NCBI GenBank assembly: GCA_015064555.1
Contig: SVRZ01000013.1
Location: forward strand, 1-58,567
Direction: 5' to 3'
DNA from: Oscillospiraceae bacterium
GTDB lineage: Bacteria > Bacillota > Clostridia > Oscillospirales > CAG-272
Length of the DNA: 58,567 nt
In this document: in pieces, positions 1 to 38,953 of the stretch
Position numbering within the stretch: the stretch's first letter is position 1
How the letters are laid out: each line of letters begins with the position of its first letter
The notes under the pieces: generated by a model
Told to the model about the DNA's origin: nothing
The model's database searches: none
The model's input: only the letters and a program-made list of their open reading frames with translations
Program-made: the position numbers and the translations under genes

Positions 1-163
1 CGTAAGCCCTATATTTTCGCATGTTTTCGCTGTGACGGAAAAAGAAAAAACTGTTTTCTTTTTGGCAAATGAAAGCGGTATAGGCAAGTATCATATTTGG
101 TCTTTTTCTGATAAAGTTGTGAAAAAACTGCGTGAACATAAAAATCTGCGAGTTGAAAAGTGA
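1..163 (+). CDS. C-terminal end of an unknown protein (partial)
   Basis: An open frame runs from the left edge (first complete codon at base 2) to a TGA at 161-163 and gives about 53 residues ending in LRVEK. The beginning lies outside the window. The visible part is mixed hydrophobic and charged, with no motif I recognise. Right after the stop the sequence passes into the first hairpin array. It could be the tail of a real gene or of a decayed one; nothing here decides that. Confidence 0.45.
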   Translation, partial: VSPIFSHVFAVTEKEKTVFFLANESGIGKYHIWSFSDKVVKKLREHKNLRVEK

Positions 164-175
164 GACTTTAAGGTA

Positions 176-464
176 TTACAACCCCCATTTTCCAACAACT
201 AAGTTTGCCCCCAGGGGCAAGTGAAGTTGCCTTCGGCAGTGAAGTTCACTGCGTGAGTGAAGTTTCGCCTGACGGCGAAGTGGAGCGAACTTAACTTCAC
301 TTTGCAAGCATAGCGAGCAAAACTTCACTGTGAGGAAATTTGCAGAGCAATTTGACGAACAACTTCACTACGAGCGAGAGCGAGTAACTTCACCTTATCA
401 GGGACAAATAATGATTTCGAGCGAAACTCGAAACTTCAATTTACATCTGTTTGGTATAACATAT
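176..464. repeat. Word-and-hairpin array 1 (word GTGAAGTT / AACTTCAC)
   Basis: This stretch fills the gap between the stop at 163 and the gene at 496. It starts with TTACAACCCCC at 176-186. The 8-mer GTGAAGTT occurs at 221, 239 and 257, exactly 18 nt apart, and then in the opposite orientation as AACTTCAC at 293, 321, 361 and 386, with a degenerate copy at 432. Between words lie hairpins such as TTGCCCCCAGGGGCAA (205-220), TGCCTTCGGCA (228-238), TCACTGCGTGA (246-256) and TTCGCCTGACGGCGAA (264-279). The right half is more degenerate. It ends with a 25-nt module (440-464, starting TTTACATCTG and ending ATAACATAT) that is also found at 1484-1508. Open frames here are not convincing as genes. Confidence 0.85.
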
Positions 465-495
465 CGAATATGCAATCATGAAAAGGAGGTAATAA

Positions 496-1197
496 ATGCG
501 ATATTTCAAGTATAAAAACACTAAGAAAAATATGAACAATGCTTTGAAAGAGCAATACTTGACTTTGACAAAAGACGAAAAACGCACTGTTAGAAAAGAA
601 AAACTTTGTCGAAGATGCAGTAGCATGGTTGCATTTATAATCTTTTTCTCCTGTATGTTCGCTTCCATATATCTTCTCAAAATAATCCCCCATCCAAGCA
701 ATCAGTGGTTAGAGGTTCTCGTTGTTTTAGGAAAAGTAATCACTGGATTTATCTTGCTCTTAGTTAGTGGATTTTTGACCTACGGAATAACATATCCTTT
801 GTGGAAAAAGGTTGAGTCATTTAGTATTCCTTTAATTAAAAAAGAAATTTTTTCAAAAGCATGTGCCCATTTGCGAGATTACTATGGACTGCAAGATCCA
901 TACATTATAACGAAATGCTATGATTCGACTGATGGAAATTTCAAAAATCATGATGTGTGTATATTTGTCGTTAATGATGAACTTCGCATTACTACCGACT
1001 TGATCCGAGGATTTCTTCATGGGCATAGAGATTTAGGATGCTACATATTCAAACGAGATGAAATAGTAATTTCAAAGAAACGCGAAAATAATCTTTTGAT
1101 TGTCGAACTTAAAGCAGAAGATACCATTTTTCTGTTGGGATACCGAGCAAAAAGGTTTGTAGAAAATAGTTTTTTAACAAGAACAGATGATAAATAA
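496..1197 (+). CDS. Unknown two-helix membrane protein
   Basis: A 233-residue protein starts at an ATG behind a strong AAAAGGAGG at 480-488. The first 45 residues are basic and rich in Lys/Arg. Two hydrophobic helices follow at about 44-63 and 73-99. The remaining soluble part (about 135 residues) probably faces the cytoplasm, judging from the positive N-terminus. I see no catalytic motif and do not recognise the family. The gene is visibly more AT-rich than the enzymes after 6000, and it sits between two hairpin arrays that share their end modules, so it may have travelled with them. It could be a membrane sensor or an accessory protein; that is speculation. Confidence 0.75.
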   Translation: MRYFKYKNTKKNMNNALKEQYLTLTKDEKRTVRKEKLCRRCSSMVAFIIFFSCMFASIYLLKIIPHPSNQWLEVLVVLGKVITGFILLLVSGFLTYGITYPLWKKVESFSIPLIKKEIFSKACAHLRDYYGLQDPYIITKCYDSTDGNFKNHDVCIFVVNDELRITTDLIRGFLHGHRDLGCYIFKRDEIVISKKRENNLLIVELKAEDTIFLLGYRAKRFVENSFLTRTDDK

Positions 1198-1212
1198 ATA
1201 TACCTTTTGGCT

Positions 1213-1508
1213 TTACAACCCCCGTTTTTGACAGGGCACGTCGAGTCCGTCGTGTGTCTCACACGTCGGCTCGACGTCGATATGCGCCGCTGACGCGTCG
1301 CTCGATATGTCTGCGACTCGATATGGCGCTAAAGCGCTCGATATGCCCTGCGGGGCGAGGAGAAAAGGCGCAATCGACACTCGTTGCCACAGGCAACATA
1401 TCGAATTTCGAGCAAAGCGAGAAATATATCGAATGGTCGCAAAGCGACCATATATCGAGTTGCGTAGCAACATATCGACAAATTTTACATCTGTTTGGTA
1501 TAACATAT
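1213..1508. repeat. Word-and-hairpin array 2 (word TCGATATG / CATATCGA)
   Basis: It begins with the same TTACAACCCCC as array 1 (1213-1223), 15 nt after the stop of the previous gene. A long hairpin (about 1238-1276) comes first. TCGATATG follows at 1277, 1302, 1318 and 1338, then the complementary ATATCGA at 1398, 1426, 1452 and 1472, giving four copies each way. Hairpins between words include GCGCTAAAGCGC, CCCTGCGGG, GTTGCCACAGGCAAC, TGGTCGCAAAGCGACCA and GTTGCGTAGCAAC. The end module at 1484-1508 is identical to 440-464 of array 1. Several short open frames cross the region but are products of the repeats. Confidence 0.88.
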
Positions 1509-1640
1509 GCTCCCTGCGAGCCACGCCTCATGCGAGGCGGTGCTACGCACCCTGCTTCGGCACACCGAAGCGCTCGCGGAGCAATCCATGCCGCCGTCCT
1601 TGCAAGCGTTTCTTGCAGATACGGGGCTCGATCATCTAAG
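1509..1640. repeat. Run of short hairpins without a constant word
   Basis: Directly after array 2 comes a string of short inverted repeats: GCTCCCTGCGAGC, CCTCATGCGAGG, GGTGCTACGCACC, GCTTCGGCACACCGAAGC and TGCAAGCGTTTCTTGCA. They resemble the hairpins of the array but no repeated word separates them. The run stops just before the ribosome binding site of the gene at 1655. It may be an eroded neighbouring array. Confidence 0.6.
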
Positions 1641-1654
1641 AAAGGAGCAATGCC

Positions 1655-2710
1655 TTGGAGGAACCAAAGAAGAGTGTTATAGAAGTAATATCAAAGACGA
1701 TTGCGAATGAGGTTGAGGACGAAAACTTTTCTCCTTCGCTTGCGGATATGCAAGCCGATTCTTCATGCTCGGATGAAATCAATCGTGCTTATGTCGAAGA
1801 GATCAAGGCGTATCAGGCTAATCCCACTTCGCCTTGCAATAAAGCCACTGCACTTAAACTATTAAAGCGCTTTGCACGTATGGAATTTCACGATTTTTGG
1901 ATTACTCCTGTCAGAGAATATTTTCCTGCAGTCAGCGAGGGCACGATGAAGTTATGCGAACGCGTTTATCCGCACGACGAGGCGATCCGATATGCTAAAG
2001 AATTAATTTTAACGCTTTCGGTTAAAGAATTGGCAAAGGATTTTCTTTACGGTGTCGCACATAATGCTCCGGAATATCGAACTGCTCTCGCTTGCTATTA
2101 CTACGTAAAAAATCTTCCCGAGCACGAGTTCAAGAAGTGCTGGGTGGGTCAATCACCGGGTAAAAACGGTCAGATGATTGACCGATATAACGAAACCGCC
2201 TGTGAGGTATGCGGATATAATTATTCGGTGAGTAAAGAGGCAAAGATGCAGTTTTATTGGGCAAACACAGAAATGGGGAAATTTTATTTTGACGGAATAA
2301 TGAATCGCTCCTATCTTAACACGGCAATCATCTTTCTCGAGGAATATAAGCGTCTTAACCGCCCTGTACACTCGGTGGGCGATTACGAGCATTTTATGAG
2401 GATCGTAGATGCTATCGAAAGCACTCCTGACAATATGACCTCGGGTAAGCTTCGACGTGAATTAAAAAAGTCCGGTCTTTTATCAATGACTCTTGACGAG
2501 ATAGCGGTATTTATTGATATGCTCGGTTATCTGGATATTCTTCACCCCGAGGATTCTCACGGTATGCTATATACTCATACGCAAACTAAAGATATGCTCC
2601 ATCCCTTGAGTGCGTGGGGCAATGCAGAGCATCCCGTAAACCGCTGGACGGGAAAAAACGGTATTGACTACGATAGCATTTCAATGCTTTTTGATGGGAT
2701 TTACGACTGA
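1655..2710 (+). CDS. Unknown 351-residue soluble protein
   Basis: The frame starts at a TTG preceded by AAAGGAG at 1641-1647, a well spaced site, so TTG is the likely start. The protein is acidic and mostly helical by eye, with no signal peptide or membrane helix. A CEVCGY cysteine pair occurs near residue 190 in a stretch with aromatic residues, possibly half of a zinc site. The C-terminal third has a helix-turn-helix-like stretch (SGKLRRELKKSGLLSMTLDEIAVFIDMLGYLDIL) suggestive of a winged-helix fold, but this is a weak reading. I do not recognise the family. It lies alone between a hairpin array and a serine hydrolase gene. Confidence 0.75.
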   Translation: MEEPKKSVIEVISKTIANEVEDENFSPSLADMQADSSCSDEINRAYVEEIKAYQANPTSPCNKATALKLLKRFARMEFHDFWITPVREYFPAVSEGTMKLCERVYPHDEAIRYAKELILTLSVKELAKDFLYGVAHNAPEYRTALACYYYVKNLPEHEFKKCWVGQSPGKNGQMIDRYNETACEVCGYNYSVSKEAKMQFYWANTEMGKFYFDGIMNRSYLNTAIIFLEEYKRLNRPVHSVGDYEHFMRIVDAIESTPDNMTSGKLRRELKKSGLLSMTLDEIAVFIDMLGYLDILHPEDSHGMLYTHTQTKDMLHPLSAWGNAEHPVNRWTGKNGIDYDSISMLFDGIYD

Positions 2711-2812
2711 AAATATACTGTTTGGAGATTTGACAACTGTTATTTTTGAGCAAACCTCAAAAGTTTGTTTTACAGTAATAATAATTAACATATCAAAGGA
2801 GAACTTACGTAA

Positions 2813-3829
2813 ATGCGACATTTAGAGAATTGTGTAAAAAAGTTGATTGAGGATAAAACTGTTGAGAATATCATCGTCAGGGTAGGACGAGGAGATGACA
2901 TTGTTTTTGAAATTAAGAGCTCTGCATCGAACAGGGTGCTTACCGATCAGACGTTGTTTGATATGGCATCGGTAACTAAAATTGTTGTAACAACCTCATT
3001 GGCACTGATTGCTATCGATAAAGGTATGCTTTCTCCGGACGATTTGGTGAGCAAATTTTTCCCTGTGCCCGAAGATAAGAAAAATCTTACGGTTCAACAT
3101 TTGCTGACACACACGATTGGAATCGGGCACAAGTCTCTCCTTGGAAGCAACGGCGCACTTGAGACTATTCAAGAATACATATTAGGTATTCCGTCCGATA
3201 TTCCTATTGGTACAAATGTACGGTACAGTTGTCCGGGATTTATTTTGCTTGGTCGTATATTGGAGACCATCTTTAAAAAAGGCCTTGATGAGGCTTTTTA
3301 TGAATACGTTGCAATACCGATTGGAATGAATGCGTCGGTTTTTTTGCCGGATAAACTAAATGATATTGTCAATTCCAATTTGCACGAAGACCAAAAGGGA
3401 ATCGTCAATGATTATAACTGCCGTTATCTTGGCGGCGTCTGCGGCAATGCGGGCCTTTTCTCTGATCTTACGGATATGACGATTTACGCAAAATTTTTGC
3501 TTGCACACGGTGACCCGTTGGTATCCAAGAATACTTTTGAATTAGCTGTGAAAAACCACACCGAAGGTATGGATGAAGCGCGCGGATTGGGTTATTTGTA
3601 TGTTGATGACCGTTATTCGCAGACGGGAGGTCTCTTCCCGACGGGAAGCATTGGCCATTGCGGTCACACAGGTCAATCAATATTTGTCGATTTCAAGAGC
3701 GGGTTATATGTAATCATTTTATCTGATGCTACCGTGAGTACAATTAAAAAATATGGCAAAGAAAATTATGGAGAAGTCATGCAAATGCGCCACGATATTC
3801 ATGCTGCAATTAAGGCAGCTCTGGATTGA
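2813..3829 (+). CDS. Serine hydrolase of the class C beta-lactamase fold
   Basis: A 338-residue enzyme of the beta-lactamase/D-alanyl-D-alanine carboxypeptidase/EstB superfamily. The SxxK motif is SVTK (Ser53, Lys56), and the third motif is HTG at 285-287, the usual variant of KTG. The second motif reads YSC (138-140) where YAN or YSN is usual. No signal peptide is visible, so a cytoplasmic esterase or peptidase role is more likely than antibiotic resistance; the substrate cannot be told. The start ATG has AAAGGAG about 11 nt upstream. It is followed by a small hairpin array rather than an obvious terminator. Confidence 0.88.
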   Translation: MRHLENCVKKLIEDKTVENIIVRVGRGDDIVFEIKSSASNRVLTDQTLFDMASVTKIVVTTSLALIAIDKGMLSPDDLVSKFFPVPEDKKNLTVQHLLTHTIGIGHKSLLGSNGALETIQEYILGIPSDIPIGTNVRYSCPGFILLGRILETIFKKGLDEAFYEYVAIPIGMNASVFLPDKLNDIVNSNLHEDQKGIVNDYNCRYLGGVCGNAGLFSDLTDMTIYAKFLLAHGDPLVSKNTFELAVKNHTEGMDEARGLGYLYVDDRYSQTGGLFPTGSIGHCGHTGQSIFVDFKSGLYVIILSDATVSTIKKYGKENYGEVMQMRHDIHAAIKAALD

Positions 3830-3841
3830 TGCCTTAATTAT

Positions 3842-4040
3842 ACTTTGGTCTTATGACGCACGTCGAAAGCGACGTGATATACACCTGTCGGTGCGTGATA
3901 TGGCTTTGCGGAGCCGTAAGGAATTTTTGCGCGATGCGTTCCGCGCGCACAAAGTGCGCATAGACGCTCTCAAGCTTGCCCGGGAAGAAGCAAGCGAAAC
4001 CAAAACTTGGCTTCACTTTTTTAAAGAGCAATAACTTCAC
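3842..4040. repeat. Word-and-hairpin array 3 (word GTGATAT), short
   Basis: This is the gap between the serine hydrolase and the membrane protein at 4057. The word GTGATAT occurs at 3874 and 3895. Hairpins CGTCGAAAGCGACG (3861-3874), CACCTGTCGGTG (3882-3893) and GGCTTTGCGGAGCC (3902-3915) alternate with it, and a further perfect hairpin GCGCACAAAGTGCGC sits at 3947-3961. After that the pattern fades, though an AACTTCAC like the word of array 1 lies at 4033-4040. No inverted half is visible, so this looks like a partial or eroded array. Confidence 0.65.
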
Positions 4041-4056
4041 AGAAGGGATAAACAAT

Positions 4057-4617
4057 ATGAAAGATTCCGAATTACGCAAGATGGCAAAAGAGCTTACATT
4101 GCCAACGGAAAAAGCAGTAGTGCAGAAGCAGGATAAAGCAGACCGCTTTGAAATCAAAAACCCGAGATGGGCTTTGTGGTTTTGTACCGTTGTCGCGGCA
4201 GGATTCTTTATAGCCTTTTGCATCCTCTTGAATTTAACGATGCGGCATAAGATTCCCTTCGAAAATATATATCTTGGCTACATAGCCTTATGCGTGTCGC
4301 TCATAGGCGCGGTGGGGGTATGGATCTGCGCTTATGAAAGACTTGCGTATGCTGACGGAGTTTACACCTACCGTCCGCCATTCGGAAAAGCAAGTGTTGC
4401 GAGAGCCGAGGATATAAAGAAGGTAAAGATTTTGAAAATCTATACCTTGGGCAAATGCGGAATTCACAAGAAAATAAGAGTTATCTTTTATGATAAGAGC
4501 AAAAACGTTTTGATTAAAATAATAGATGACGGAACGATTGATAAGAGCGAAGTATTTGAAAAATCGTTAAAAGTAAATCATATAAAGCTTTCACGTGTAG
4601 AGGAGCATAGGTATTGA
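4057..4617 (+). CDS. Unknown membrane protein with two helices, possibly PH-like
   Basis: The ATG at 4057 follows AGAAGGGATA at 4041-4050 and gives 186 residues; an in-frame start further upstream would read through repeat sequence and is less likely. A charged N-terminal 45 residues leads into two hydrophobic helices around 48-68 and 78-98. A C-terminal part follows with beta-strand-like alternation (DGVYTYRPPFGKASVARAED, then KIRVIFYDKSKNVLIKI). This order is typical of small bacterial membrane proteins with a PH-like (bPH) domain, but I cannot confirm that. No neighbour suggests a role. Confidence 0.7.
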   Translation: MKDSELRKMAKELTLPTEKAVVQKQDKADRFEIKNPRWALWFCTVVAAGFFIAFCILLNLTMRHKIPFENIYLGYIALCVSLIGAVGVWICAYERLAYADGVYTYRPPFGKASVARAEDIKKVKILKIYTLGKCGIHKKIRVIFYDKSKNVLIKIIDDGTIDKSEVFEKSLKVNHIKLSRVEEHRY

Positions 4618-4664
4618 TCTGCAGCTCTGATGCAACCCTTTGACGGTGAAAAAGGAGGATAAAT

Positions 4665-4766
4665 ATGAAGCCGATAAGCATAAAGAATTTTCATAAAGTT
4701 CCTGTTTTGATGAATTTGTTGTTATTGATCGGTATTCCGATTTGCATTTGTATCTACGTCGTTTAA
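4665..4766 (+). CDS. Small membrane peptide, 33 residues
   Basis: ATG at 4665 is preceded by an excellent AAAGGAGG (4651-4658). The ORF encodes 33 residues and ends with TAA at 4764-4766. The first 11 residues are basic and polar (MKPISIKNFHK); the rest is one hydrophobic stretch (VPVLMNLLLLIGIPICICIYVV), enough for a single membrane helix. Strong translation signals and amphipathic layout support a real micropeptide, perhaps regulatory or toxin-like. The family is unknown to me. Confidence 0.5.
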   Translation: MKPISIKNFHKVPVLMNLLLLIGIPICICIYVV

Positions 4767-4834
4767 TTAAATGACGATGCTGTGCATCACCGTCCAAGCG
4801 ATAGAGTATGCTCAGATCACCGAAAGGAGAAAAA

Positions 4835-4918
4835 ATGATTCTATATCGTCCAATAGGAGAAAAGGAAAATATCCGGTACGGTAAAGAATTCGGAAGAGAG
4901 GATTTATTGTGGAATTAA
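4835..4918 (+). CDS. Very small ORF overlapping the next gene
   Basis: ATG at 4835 follows CGAAAGGAG and encodes 27 residues, beginning MILYRPIGEKE. Its stop overlaps the GTG start of the acyltransferase by 10 nt. The opening resembles the N-terminus of a known family of proteins beginning LYRPVG.KE, so it may be the remnant of a deleted gene. It could equally act as a leader peptide that couples translation to the acyltransferase. Confidence 0.35.
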   Translation: MILYRPIGEKENIRYGKEFGREDLLWN

Positions 4919-5976
4919 GAAAAAGTGCAGGTAGCAACAGACTGGATTATGTAGACGTTTACAGAGCATTAGGAATTATTCTTATGGTTATGGGACACAT
5001 CGGATTCGGCGATATCTTTGACCATTTCATTCACGCTTTTCATATGCCGATGTTTTTTATACTTTCCGGATTCCTGTATAACACCGAAAAAAACGCAACG
5101 ATCTCAATTAAACAATTTGTAAAAAAGAAAGCGAAGGCTTTGCTTATCCCATATCTTGCTTTTTCTTTGATACATATTCCTGTATGGCTTATATTGGAAG
5201 GTTTTAGCTATGAGCCGTTGCTTAATTTGCTGCTTTTCAGCACCAAGGAACTTCCGGTCGCTGATGCACTGTGGTTTCTGGTTGCACTTTTTGTTGCAGA
5301 TATTACATATTTTTTGTTAAGAAGGTTCATAAAAAATAAATTTATTTTTCACGGATGTGTTGTAGTTATCTCCGTGACGGGTTGTCTGATTAAGCCTTTG
5401 CTTTCTGTTGTTCTTCCGTTTGCTTTAGGACCTGCGATGGTTGGACTGGGCTTATTTGATATCGGATGCTCGATACGTAGTGCGAAAAACAAATGGATAT
5501 TCCCAAAATTGCTCGATCTTAAATGGTATTTTTGGATTGTACTCACATTAGGTACGTCCGCTTTGATCTTTTTGAACGGCTATATTAATATGCGTTCAGA
5601 GAAATATGCAATTGTGCCGTTGTTCTTTGTGGTTTCCATGTTATCATTCTTTGTTTTGATAACACTTTCCAAATTTATCTGTAAAATTTTCGGAAAGACA
5701 ATTATATGCAGTTGGTTAAAATCGATAGGCGAGAATTCTATCGTATACGTATGCACAAATCAAGTTGTGATAATCGTAGTCAGATATCTGACTTCATTTC
5801 TTCCGGAAACGAGCACCGTGATGCTATTGGTAAAGCTATTATTCACACTTGTTCTTTCCCTGACGTTCCTATGGTGCATATCTTTATTCATAGCAAAAAC
5901 ACCGGCGCGTACGTTGATAGGACGCTTTAATACGGATAGTACAAAAAACAAACGCGAAGTCGGAGTAGGCGCATAA
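4909..5976 (+). CDS. Acyltransferase family 3 membrane protein
   Basis: A 355-residue integral membrane protein with about ten hydrophobic helices. The N-terminal signature (RLDYVDVYRALGIILMVMGH, then HAFHMPMFFILSGFLY) is that of acyltransferase family 3 (OafA/NodX/fucose O-acetylase type), with the family's conserved Arg and His in the first segment. Such enzymes move acetyl or other acyl groups onto sugars of surface polysaccharides across the membrane. The start is a GTG at 4909 with AGAGAGG at 4895-4901; a short ORF overlaps it. The acceptor cannot be inferred, as no polysaccharide cluster surrounds it. Confidence 0.88.
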   Translation: MELRKSAGSNRLDYVDVYRALGIILMVMGHIGFGDIFDHFIHAFHMPMFFILSGFLYNTEKNATISIKQFVKKKAKALLIPYLAFSLIHIPVWLILEGFSYEPLLNLLLFSTKELPVADALWFLVALFVADITYFLLRRFIKNKFIFHGCVVVISVTGCLIKPLLSVVLPFALGPAMVGLGLFDIGCSIRSAKNKWIFPKLLDLKWYFWIVLTLGTSALIFLNGYINMRSEKYAIVPLFFVVSMLSFFVLITLSKFICKIFGKTIICSWLKSIGENSIVYVCTNQVVIIVVRYLTSFLPETSTVMLLVKLLFTLVLSLTFLWCISLFIAKTPARTLIGRFNTDSTKNKREVGVGA

Positions 5977-38617: not shown

Positions 38618-38744
38618 AATCCGCAATACTGCGTTAAAGCTTCGACTTGTCGCCCTCGACGTAGGTAACTACGCCATCGGGCTTCGCGCTCGCTTTGCCT
38701 TGTCTTGCGAATTTTCTACTAACCAGCATATTTCGTCTTATACA
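38611..38744. repeat. MITE-like intergenic element
   Basis: A 134-nt unit with terminal inverted repeats TGTATAA (38611-38617) and TTATACA (38738-38744). The left end includes the queA stop codon. Inside is a stable hairpin: GCCC, then CGTAG GTAA CTACG, then GGGC (38652-38682). No ORF. This may be a transposon-derived small element. Confidence 0.6.
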
Positions 38745-38758
38745 GCATCAGCTTTGCG

Positions 38759-38953
38759 GATTGCATGCTCATTCAATGAGCATGCAATGAATTGCCCGAT
38801 GGGCATGAATTGGCTGCGCCATGGATTGCACCTGCGGTGCATGAATTGCCTTCGGCGTTGAGAACAGGGCAATTCAAATCATGGAGGAGGCGGAATGCCG
38901 ACGAGAAATCATGATGTGAAGCATCAATTCATGACGGCTCGCCGTCAATTCAT
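38759..38953. repeat. Word-and-hairpin array 4 (word ATGAATTG / CAATTCAT)
   Basis: ATGAATTG occurs at 38787, 38805 and 38841, with the variant ATGGATTG at 38821. The complementary CAATTCAT follows at 38925 and 38946, with CAATTCAA at 38870. Hairpins include GCATGCTCATTCAATGAGCATGC's two arms (38763 on), GCCCGATGGGC, CACCTGCGGTG, GATGTGAAGCATC and ACGGCTCGCCGT. It reaches to 27 nt before the start of the lipoprotein gene. No other gene content is present between queA and 38981. Confidence 0.8.

Follow-up and report, generated by a model that had tools for sequence, protein, structure and literature searches.

A solo inverted array of hairpin-separated words in an Oscillospiraceae genome belongs to a varied family of arrays usually found before four-helix-bundle genes

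Background

REP palindromes carry a GTAG/CGTC-type tag at their foot. Integron gene cassettes are small genes arranged in tandem and separated by folded sites (attC, which has R boxes), with IntI as the integrase, and the 23S rRNA intervening sequences (IVSs) that carry an IVP gene have flanking structure. Avd-like proteins and the four-helix proteins encoded by IVSs are thought to act on RNA; to our knowledge, the 23S-rRNA-IVP/four-helix-bundle proteins are widespread and without a shown function.

The word arrays described here resemble REPIN/RAYT systems (PMC3116915) in having an inverted pair of hairpin-forming repeats, an adjacent protein gene, and solo copies without the gene. They also resemble an element filed as RNA: the consensus of Gut-1 (Rfam RF01706), with four UGAAAU words and three flush hairpins, corresponds to one half of an array. 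In Weinberg et al. 2010 (PMC2864571), Gut-1 is listed as a certain RNA ('Y'), found in human gut only and unaffiliated with mRNAs. We found no paper in the open PMC literature tying Gut-1 to four-helix-bundle genes, and the available sections of a paper on palindromic candidate RNAs (PMC8040213) mention neither Gut-1 nor helix bundles.

The window analyzed here is a stretch of 58,567 nucleotides (contig SVRZ01000013.1) from an Oscillospiraceae bacterium whose genome assembly comprises 2.07 Mb in 44 contigs and is 82% complete. It holds, among others, an element that we call array 2, in which short words on the left are complementary to short words on the right. Array 2 is not unique: it is a member of a large and varied family of arrays, usually located before a gene of the family PF05635 (23S-rRNA-IVP, four-helix-bundle; hereafter 4HB).

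REPINs are the closest functional likeness of these arrays. The trait of two inverted hairpin units is present in 89 deduplicated loci, with several words per half; the arrays usually have three to five words per half as against one REP, the adjacent protein is PF05635 rather than a RAYT, which is a Y1 transposase, and the arrays often lie 3' of tRNA, tmRNA or rlmD genes. None of the consensus words in our list carries the GTAG/CGTC-type tag by eye, and most are TGAWRT-like. The array units share the PF05635 protein family, which has a solved relative in 2rld, with the 23S rRNA IVSs, although array 2 itself has no gene. Unlike IVSs, they occur at tRNA, tmRNA and rlmD 3' ends, and neither the window nor any of 20 array loci yielded an rRNA in Rfam scans. 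The rlmD locus resembles integron cassettes in its tandem small genes with folded sites between them, but here a copied rlmD 3' end forms the site and the array is optional.

Results and discussion

Words and hairpins of array 2

A sequence-only reading of the window had proposed that array 2 contains four words each way. Within 1213-1508 the left word TCGATATG and the right word ATATCGA do each occur four times as exact matches (Table 1), and the 8-letter form CATATCGA occurs at 1397 and 1471 only. The best nested 7-mer score of array 2 is 4. Among 1000 dinucleotide shuffles, 37 scored 0, 961 scored 1 and two scored 2, and none reached three complementary pairs. When the whole window was scanned in 300-nt windows at 50-nt steps, scores of at least 3 were confined to array 2, its sister array 1, and the scan windows starting at 38701-38751. 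The gaps between the words of array 2 are hairpins. The span originally given for the element, 1213..1508, contains the array but is too wide at both ends: 1213-1236 is the tail of a cassette, 1237-1262 is a copy of the rlmD 3' end, and 1484-1508 is a cassette-end motif, common to 440-464, that lies outside the array proper. Equivalents of the boundary hairpin (hp0) with other sequences are present in other rlmD-site arrays.

Table 1. Features of array 2 and positions of the other arrays in the window
Feature	Position	Strand	Basis or remark
Array 1, sister of array 2, word GTGAAGTT/AACTTCAC, same right end	196..464	+	Sequence; nested-score scan
rlmD (23S rRNA m5U1939 methyltransferase) 3'-end copy, the 'core' joining cassette units	1237..1262	+	CACGTCGAGTCCGTCGTGTGTCTCAC
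Boundary hairpin hp0, 5' arm is the rlmD-like core	1240..1275	+	Minimum free energy (MFE) structure
Left word 1, TCGATATG	1277..1284	+	Exact match
Hairpin 1, one C.T mismatch	1284..1301	+	MFE
Left word 2	1302..1309	+	Exact match
Hairpin 2, GTC-TGC-GAC, loop TGC	1309..1317	+	Sequence; forced-ladder fold, not MFE
Left word 3	1318..1325	+	Exact match
Hairpin 3, GCGC-TAAA-GCGC	1326..1337	+	Folds
Left word 4	1338..1345	+	Exact match
Hairpin 4, GCCC-TGCG-GGGC	1345..1356	+	Local fold (words unpaired); not in RNA MFE
Segment partly complementary to word 1 and hairpin 1 5' arm, imperfect	1367..1377	+	GGCGCAATCGA, by eye
Hairpin before first right word, GTTGCC-ACA-GGCAAC	1383..1397	+	Fold
Right word 1, ATATCGA	1398..1404	+	Exact match
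Right hairpin A, internal mismatches	1405..1425	+	Folds
Right word 2	1426..1432	+	Exact match
Right hairpin B, 8 bp, loop AAA	1433..1451	+	Folds
Right word 3	1452..1458	+	Exact match
Right hairpin C, GTTGC-GTA-GCAAC, GNA loop	1459..1471	+	Sequence; local fold
Right word 4	1472..1478	+	Exact match
Cassette-end motif TTTACATCTGTTTGGTATAACATAT, extended -10-like by eye	1484..1508	+	Common to short-leader and array cassettes
Third array, word TGAATTG, solo, no 4HB gene	38756..38953	+	Scan; limits by eye

Directly after the position of right word 4, two related loci (L017 and L004) carry a 4HB gene that is absent at array 2. Array 2 is a solo copy, lacking the 4HB gene that its near relative L017 keeps.

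The third array has a queA-like gene upstream and, on its other side, a gene whose product is beta-helix/pectate-lyase-like. A remnant of a CGTGATAT-type array is visible at 3835-3906, behind a gene that matches Beta-lactamase (PF00144) over 2813-3829, and the remnant gives a weak match to Gut-1 (25.5 bits).

A family of arrays beside four-helix-bundle genes

A Pfam search that was blind to arrays found PF05635 in 88 of the 146 genomes of the window's family. We examined 104 distinct 4HB genes, drawn from 30 loci that the search returned and from 80 additional places, after dropping exact 3'-end duplicates, partial genes, and genes with <200 nt of upstream sequence. A complementary word array with a score of at least 2 lies upstream of 70 of the 104 genes, and 36 have a score of at least 3; in the shuffle control, 5 of 1040 reached the lower score and 0 of 1040 the higher. 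None of the 57 regions downstream of 4HB genes reached a complementary word score of 2. In a set selected by its right end, all 19 of 19 4HB genes score at least 3, as that selection favours.

Because the arrays were found by complementarity, we used a non-circular test in which the repeated word was chosen blind to its complement. The most repeated 7-mer has at least three copies in 87 of the 104 genes; its complement is absent in 19 of the 87, present in 68, and present at least twice in 52, as compared with 3.1 for random 7-mers taken from these sequences. Left and right words therefore covary among the relatives of array 2. Outside the family, a set from elsewhere in the phylum had a repeated 7-mer in 7 of 24 genes, none with the complement twice, and just one of the 24 reached a score of 2 and none 3. 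We rejected the idea that arrays are a general feature of PF05635; they are associated with one 4HB subfamily.

The family statistics exclude array 2, which was removed during deduplication as a near duplicate, most likely of L017. The 89 arrays that were kept, and the later counts wherever the script filters passed them, include mis-parsed ones (for example, L104, which has no right words, and L149) as well as low-complexity hits (L099, L140, L165, L186, L188, L196, L199, L216, L226 and L234). They use 37 different 7-mer seeds, some of them shifted registers of one word, such as TGAATTG, GTGATAT, GCGATAT, TCGATAT, GTGAAAT, GCTAAAT, AATGATG, AATGAAG, GTGAAGT, ATGAAGC, ATGATAT and GTTATGA. In 66 of the 89 there are three to five words on each side, separated by spacers of mostly 9-19 nt. 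Stems of at least three Watson-Crick pairs flush with the words were found in 81 of 209 left and 89 of 239 right spacers, as against about 2% of shuffled spacers. Across the family, the symmetry is genuine and under selection.

A frequent anatomy is the 3' end of a tRNA, tmRNA or rlmD gene, a hairpin, the array, a promoter, the 4HB gene and a passenger gene. Of 72 arrays, 49 have a strong hairpin (stem of at least 8) ahead of their first word (shuffled, 0.9%). In 32 of 74 arrays the first word starts 26-69 nt after the end of a tRNA or tmRNA gene, and these genes include 13 tRNA isotypes besides tmRNA; of the other 42, 17 belong to the set selected by the rlmD-cassette right end, 6 offered too short a sequence, and 19 lack both genes within 130 nt, some of these having a tRNA further off. 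A tRNA lies no more than 450 nt upstream of 8 of the 50 4HB genes that have no array. In 16 of 59 units a near-consensus promoter (score 10-12) separates the array from the 4HB gene (control, 1%), in a scan that starts after the last word and so misses a -35 element overlapping it, as in L125. In 22 of 83 loci the 4HB stop codon is part of an ATGA, and 26 of 66 loci have a further frame of 60 or more codons downstream, overlapping the 4HB stop by 4 nt in 15 of the 26.

The window's own genome, which is incomplete, has just two PF05635 matches. The second of these genes (L149, contig 6) has an array with the word TTGAAAT, and arrays of this type appear to be repeated upstream of the gene and to run on downstream of it.

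We considered and rejected the arrays as parts of phages: the right-end pattern is absent from a viral contig collection. Two unannotated records titled as uncultured human-faecal 'bacteriophage' (L236 and L237) both have a 4HB gene with an array by eye, one of them after a tRNA-Arg. No array was visible at the one 4HB gene viewed, on a Monoglobus plasmid (L238), of 25 matching plasmid records.

Folding of the arrays

Pairing the words of array 2 outermost with outermost had been predicted to give a ladder of four-way junctions. As RNA, array 2 (1238-1481) folds at -110.9 kcal/mol (z -7.36), and as DNA at -66.9 kcal/mol (z -7.02); in both cases, none of 200 shuffles was as stable, and three of the helices in the MFE structure pair word with word. 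Forcing all four rungs of the ladder costs little, at -110.7 kcal/mol as RNA, 0.2 above the optimum, while keeping the words unpaired gives -86.8 kcal/mol, 24 kcal/mol worse than the optimum. At least two word-word helices occur in the MFE structures of 68 of 79 family arrays as RNA and 73 of 79 as DNA. The predicted pairing between words thus held up, since the folds go beyond local hairpins and the left and right words covary.

The predicted order found no such support. Across 10, 58 and 73 informative arrays, nested pairing was no better than permuted pairing (P 0.31, 0.70 and 0.22), in a test that is weak because the words within one array hardly differ. Given this lack of excess for outermost-with-outermost pairing, we do not claim the order of the rungs; the ladder is the favoured fold, but its nested order is unproven.

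A second conserved helix competes with the ladder in most families. In it, the first left word and the 5' arm of hairpin 1 pair with a segment before the innermost right word, which excludes hairpin 1 and the outermost rung. This helix has at least nine consecutive complementary bases in 55 of 80 arrays, as against 0.6% of shuffled segments and 10 of 230 later left units; the search stretch is longer for the first unit, and the shuffled control uses the identical stretch. The sequences involved differ between families, so that the helix covaries. It is weak in L017, the near relative of array 2 (itself outside the tested set), where just six exact bases match, and energy models seldom choose it (7 of 79 optima as RNA and 3 of 79 as DNA).

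DNA or RNA

The branched shape had been suggested for either RNA or DNA. Evidence on this point comes from the hairpin loops. On the + strand, left-half loops comprise 138 TNC, 3 GNA and 50 others, and right-half loops 87 GNA, 4 TNC and 88 others, so that 88 of 179 right-hand loops are neither type (Fisher's test, left versus right, 1e-54). The GNA and TNC loops are nearly all 3 or 4 nt long with a C-G closing pair, giving C(TNC)G in left hairpins and C(GNA)G in right ones. This polarity means that the halves are inverted at the DNA level, the right half being the reverse complement of the left in style. The strand running 5' to 3' outward from the array center carries C(GNA)G and C(GNNA)G, and GNA and GNNA loops on G-C stems are described as extraordinarily stable DNA minihairpins (PMC4686876). 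Among the tetraloops are GTCA, GTTA and GACA, none of them of the GNRA type.

Mismatches in the stems point the same way. We counted 12 GT and 20 AC on the left and 25 GT and 18 AC on the right; the + strand has no G.U excess (37 GT versus 38 AC), and the asymmetry in wobbles that outward strands should show, 45 versus 30, is not significant (P 0.10). Loops and mismatch counts together favour DNA without excluding RNA.

The chief alternative, which we regard as somewhat unlikely, is that the array is a structured noncoding RNA, a larger Gut-1 with two halves, which would arise when transcription of the upstream tRNA or rlmD gene reads through, and to which the 4HB protein would bind. Array 2 folds strongly as RNA, many units stand directly behind stable-RNA genes, and Rfam and PMC2864571 treat one half as an RNA. 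The conserved long-range helix, which has different sequences in each family, would not be expected from binding sites alone and argues for an intramolecular single-strand fold, possibly RNA. Against this alternative, there is no G.U excess, the dominant 3-nt loops and the GNNA loops without GNRA restriction fit DNA, and in many units the array stands behind a hairpin resembling a terminator and ahead of a promoter.

Matches to Gut-1 bear on the same question. Gut-1 scored above threshold in 5 of 20 array loci (L205, L222, L106, L114 and L113), and at E<=0.5 it matched in 8 of 12 loci, of which 6 show an inverted pair with one match on each strand. Hence no single transcript can have the same loops in both halves. 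In the window, the left half of array 1 matches Gut-1 at 196-268 with 46.4 bits, below the cut-off of 50, and array 2 has no match to the Gut-1 covariance model at E<=5. Unlike Gut-1 as filed, the arrays are inverted pairs, usually beside PF05635 genes, and use many other words; they occur in gut metagenome-assembled genomes (MAGs) largely of ruminants, whereas Gut-1 is described from human gut only. We take Gut-1 to be one word class of half-arrays. These comparisons suggest that the catalogued Gut-1 RNA is half of a DNA element, which, if true, is a caution for RNA discovery from structure alone.

In L114 the Gut-1 pair belongs to a second GTGAAAT-type array (1415-1618) and not to the one beside the 4HB gene. 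This second array lies downstream of the 4HB gene, before promoter-like sequence and another gene.

Recognition by the four-helix-bundle protein

Our best reading, which we hold tentatively, is that array 2 represents, as a solo copy, a DNA structure that a cognate 4HB protein recognises in the manner of REPINs, built of two inverted half-arrays of four 7-8 bp words each. In the family, the array normally makes up a unit with the 4HB gene and, in many cases, a passenger gene, immediately 3' of a tRNA, tmRNA or rlmD gene. We infer that an oligomer of the cognate 4HB protein binds its own array of words and hairpins in DNA, much as RAYTs presumably act on REPINs; recognition would be specific to the word and to hairpin-bearing DNA. 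The hairpins may be extruded by supercoiling or exposed on the strand that runs outward from the center, and pairing between the halves, as in the ladder, could hold both ends in one complex. Binding would serve the movement or maintenance of the unit, possibly with control of the promoter.

Word similarity rises with 4HB identity (r 0.43 for 81 elements, using pairs below 85% identity), and the maximum of 999 permutations was 0.16. Among 73 pairs of 4HB proteins at least 85% identical, 93% have a word score of at least 6. This agreement may stem from shared descent alone. The word GTGAAGT occurs with two distinct 4HB types by eye. The roughly 80 natural protein-word pairs among these 81 elements make a binding test of 4HB proteins direct.

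The same covariation of words with the protein would also be expected if the words were ordinary double-stranded operators, through which the 4HB protein or another regulator controls a 4HB-passenger operon, with the hairpins as by-products. The promoters adjoining the array in 16 units and the downstream frames described above, with their 4-nt overlaps, fit such an arrangement. Operators, however, need neither hairpins flush with the words, which occur far above chance, nor conserved loop types, and solo arrays persist without a 4HB gene; we consider this explanation unlikely.

Cassettes, rlmD sites and mobility

The right-end motif TTTACATCTGTTTGGTATAACATAT is common to arrays 1 and 2 and recurs on another contig (C7) of the genome. 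C7 ends, by eye, in the sequence that opens the window, and the two contigs therefore probably adjoin. The arrays on C7 start at the 3' end of rlmD, the gene there (L001) being identified as RlmD by NCBIfam TIGR00479 with 380 bits against a cut-off of 184; rlmD-type cores also lie, by eye, at the 3' ends of rlmD-like genes in L005, L009 and L028. A first search with the right end matched 22 of 295 genomes, chance hits included, and among the loci viewed we rejected L003, L010, L011 and L022 as chance hits with no unit by eye. Among named genomes, 66 stretches carry the right-end pattern, nearly all titled Clostridia or Oscillospiraceae MAGs, the exceptions being one Clostridiales and one 'uncultured bacterium'.

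From 1 to 5976 in the window, and in L001, tandem gene cassettes follow rlmD and are joined at copies of its 3' end in an integron-like manner. We collected 87 cassette units: 34 have a short leader (about 170-205 nt) and 24 exceed 215 nt; the rest comprise 4 short forms of other kinds, 4 truncated units, and 21 whose core was missing from the search or out of range. Word arrays were seen by eye in 18 of the 22 longer units viewed. Units of about 600-720 nt hold a reading frame between the array and the right end; the one tested is PF05635, and the others were found by a home-made profile. Short leaders (for example, L016, L043 and L070) have TTTGTC..GACAAA ends, an imperfect long hairpin and an extra-helical G, reminiscent of attC by eye, and some carry a GTAGGGGCG inverted repeat. 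In L006, a gene for a large serine recombinase (PF07508; 1688-2992, minus strand) runs into an rlmD-like core recognized by eye, and this recombinase is a candidate source of the enzyme that joins the cassettes.

On this evidence the array could be an integron-like recombination site that replaces the attC-like leader between rlmD-anchored cassettes and serves, folded as a single strand, as the substrate of a recombinase supplied in trans. The tandem units of reading frame, rlmD core, and leader or array would fit, as would the recurrence of one passenger start behind arrays that differ (L001, L038 and L059) and the presence of TTTGTC..GACAAA, which resembles the rlmD core, in the boundary hairpin of 15 of 72 arrays, as against 0.05 expected; the rlmD hairpin finder penalises mismatches, so that stems are under-reported. 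But the 34 units with a short leader have no array, so cassettes can be joined without one; many arrays are found away from rlmD, and among the loci viewed a recombinase was seen at L006 alone. We judge this explanation quite improbable.

In the AATGATG family the boundary hairpin is near-identical at different sites (L115, L125, L157 and L168) while the preceding sequence differs; L115 and L157 come from one genome and are 79% identical over 650 nt, and L125 and L168 come from another and are 86% identical over 634 nt. A constant hairpin next to a variable flank suggests that the hairpin is part of the array unit and that the unit moves.

If the arrays are indeed recognition structures for their 4HB proteins, it is possible, though doubtful, that they define a new class of mobile unit, in which a 4HB protein and a word-specific inverted hairpin array that can fold into a chain of flush four-way DNA junctions install themselves and a passenger gene 3' of tRNA, tmRNA or rlmD, the words evolving with the protein. 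Were this so, the Gut-1 'RNA' would be one end of a DNA element rather than an RNA, and a first function would be known for PF05635 proteins. If they form as DNA, such chains of flush junctions, whose halves are self-complementary, would be an unusual recognition architecture, here in the service of a gene-carrying mobile unit in gut Clostridia.

Finally, a passive relic without function, left by inverted duplication of word-hairpin units through replication slippage, would suit the remnant at 3835-3906 and the absence of a 4HB gene from array 2 and several rlmD-site arrays, and may hold for the array 2 copy alone, but it is hard to hold for the family and scarcely credible overall, as many words complementary on both sides, one shared plan and a lasting loop polarity need selection.

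Immediately beyond the cassette-end motif of array 2, a hairpin-rich stretch (1509-1640) is shared, by eye, with the copy on C7 (L001, about 300-360, minus strand), and parts of the array seem to have been exchanged or lost there.
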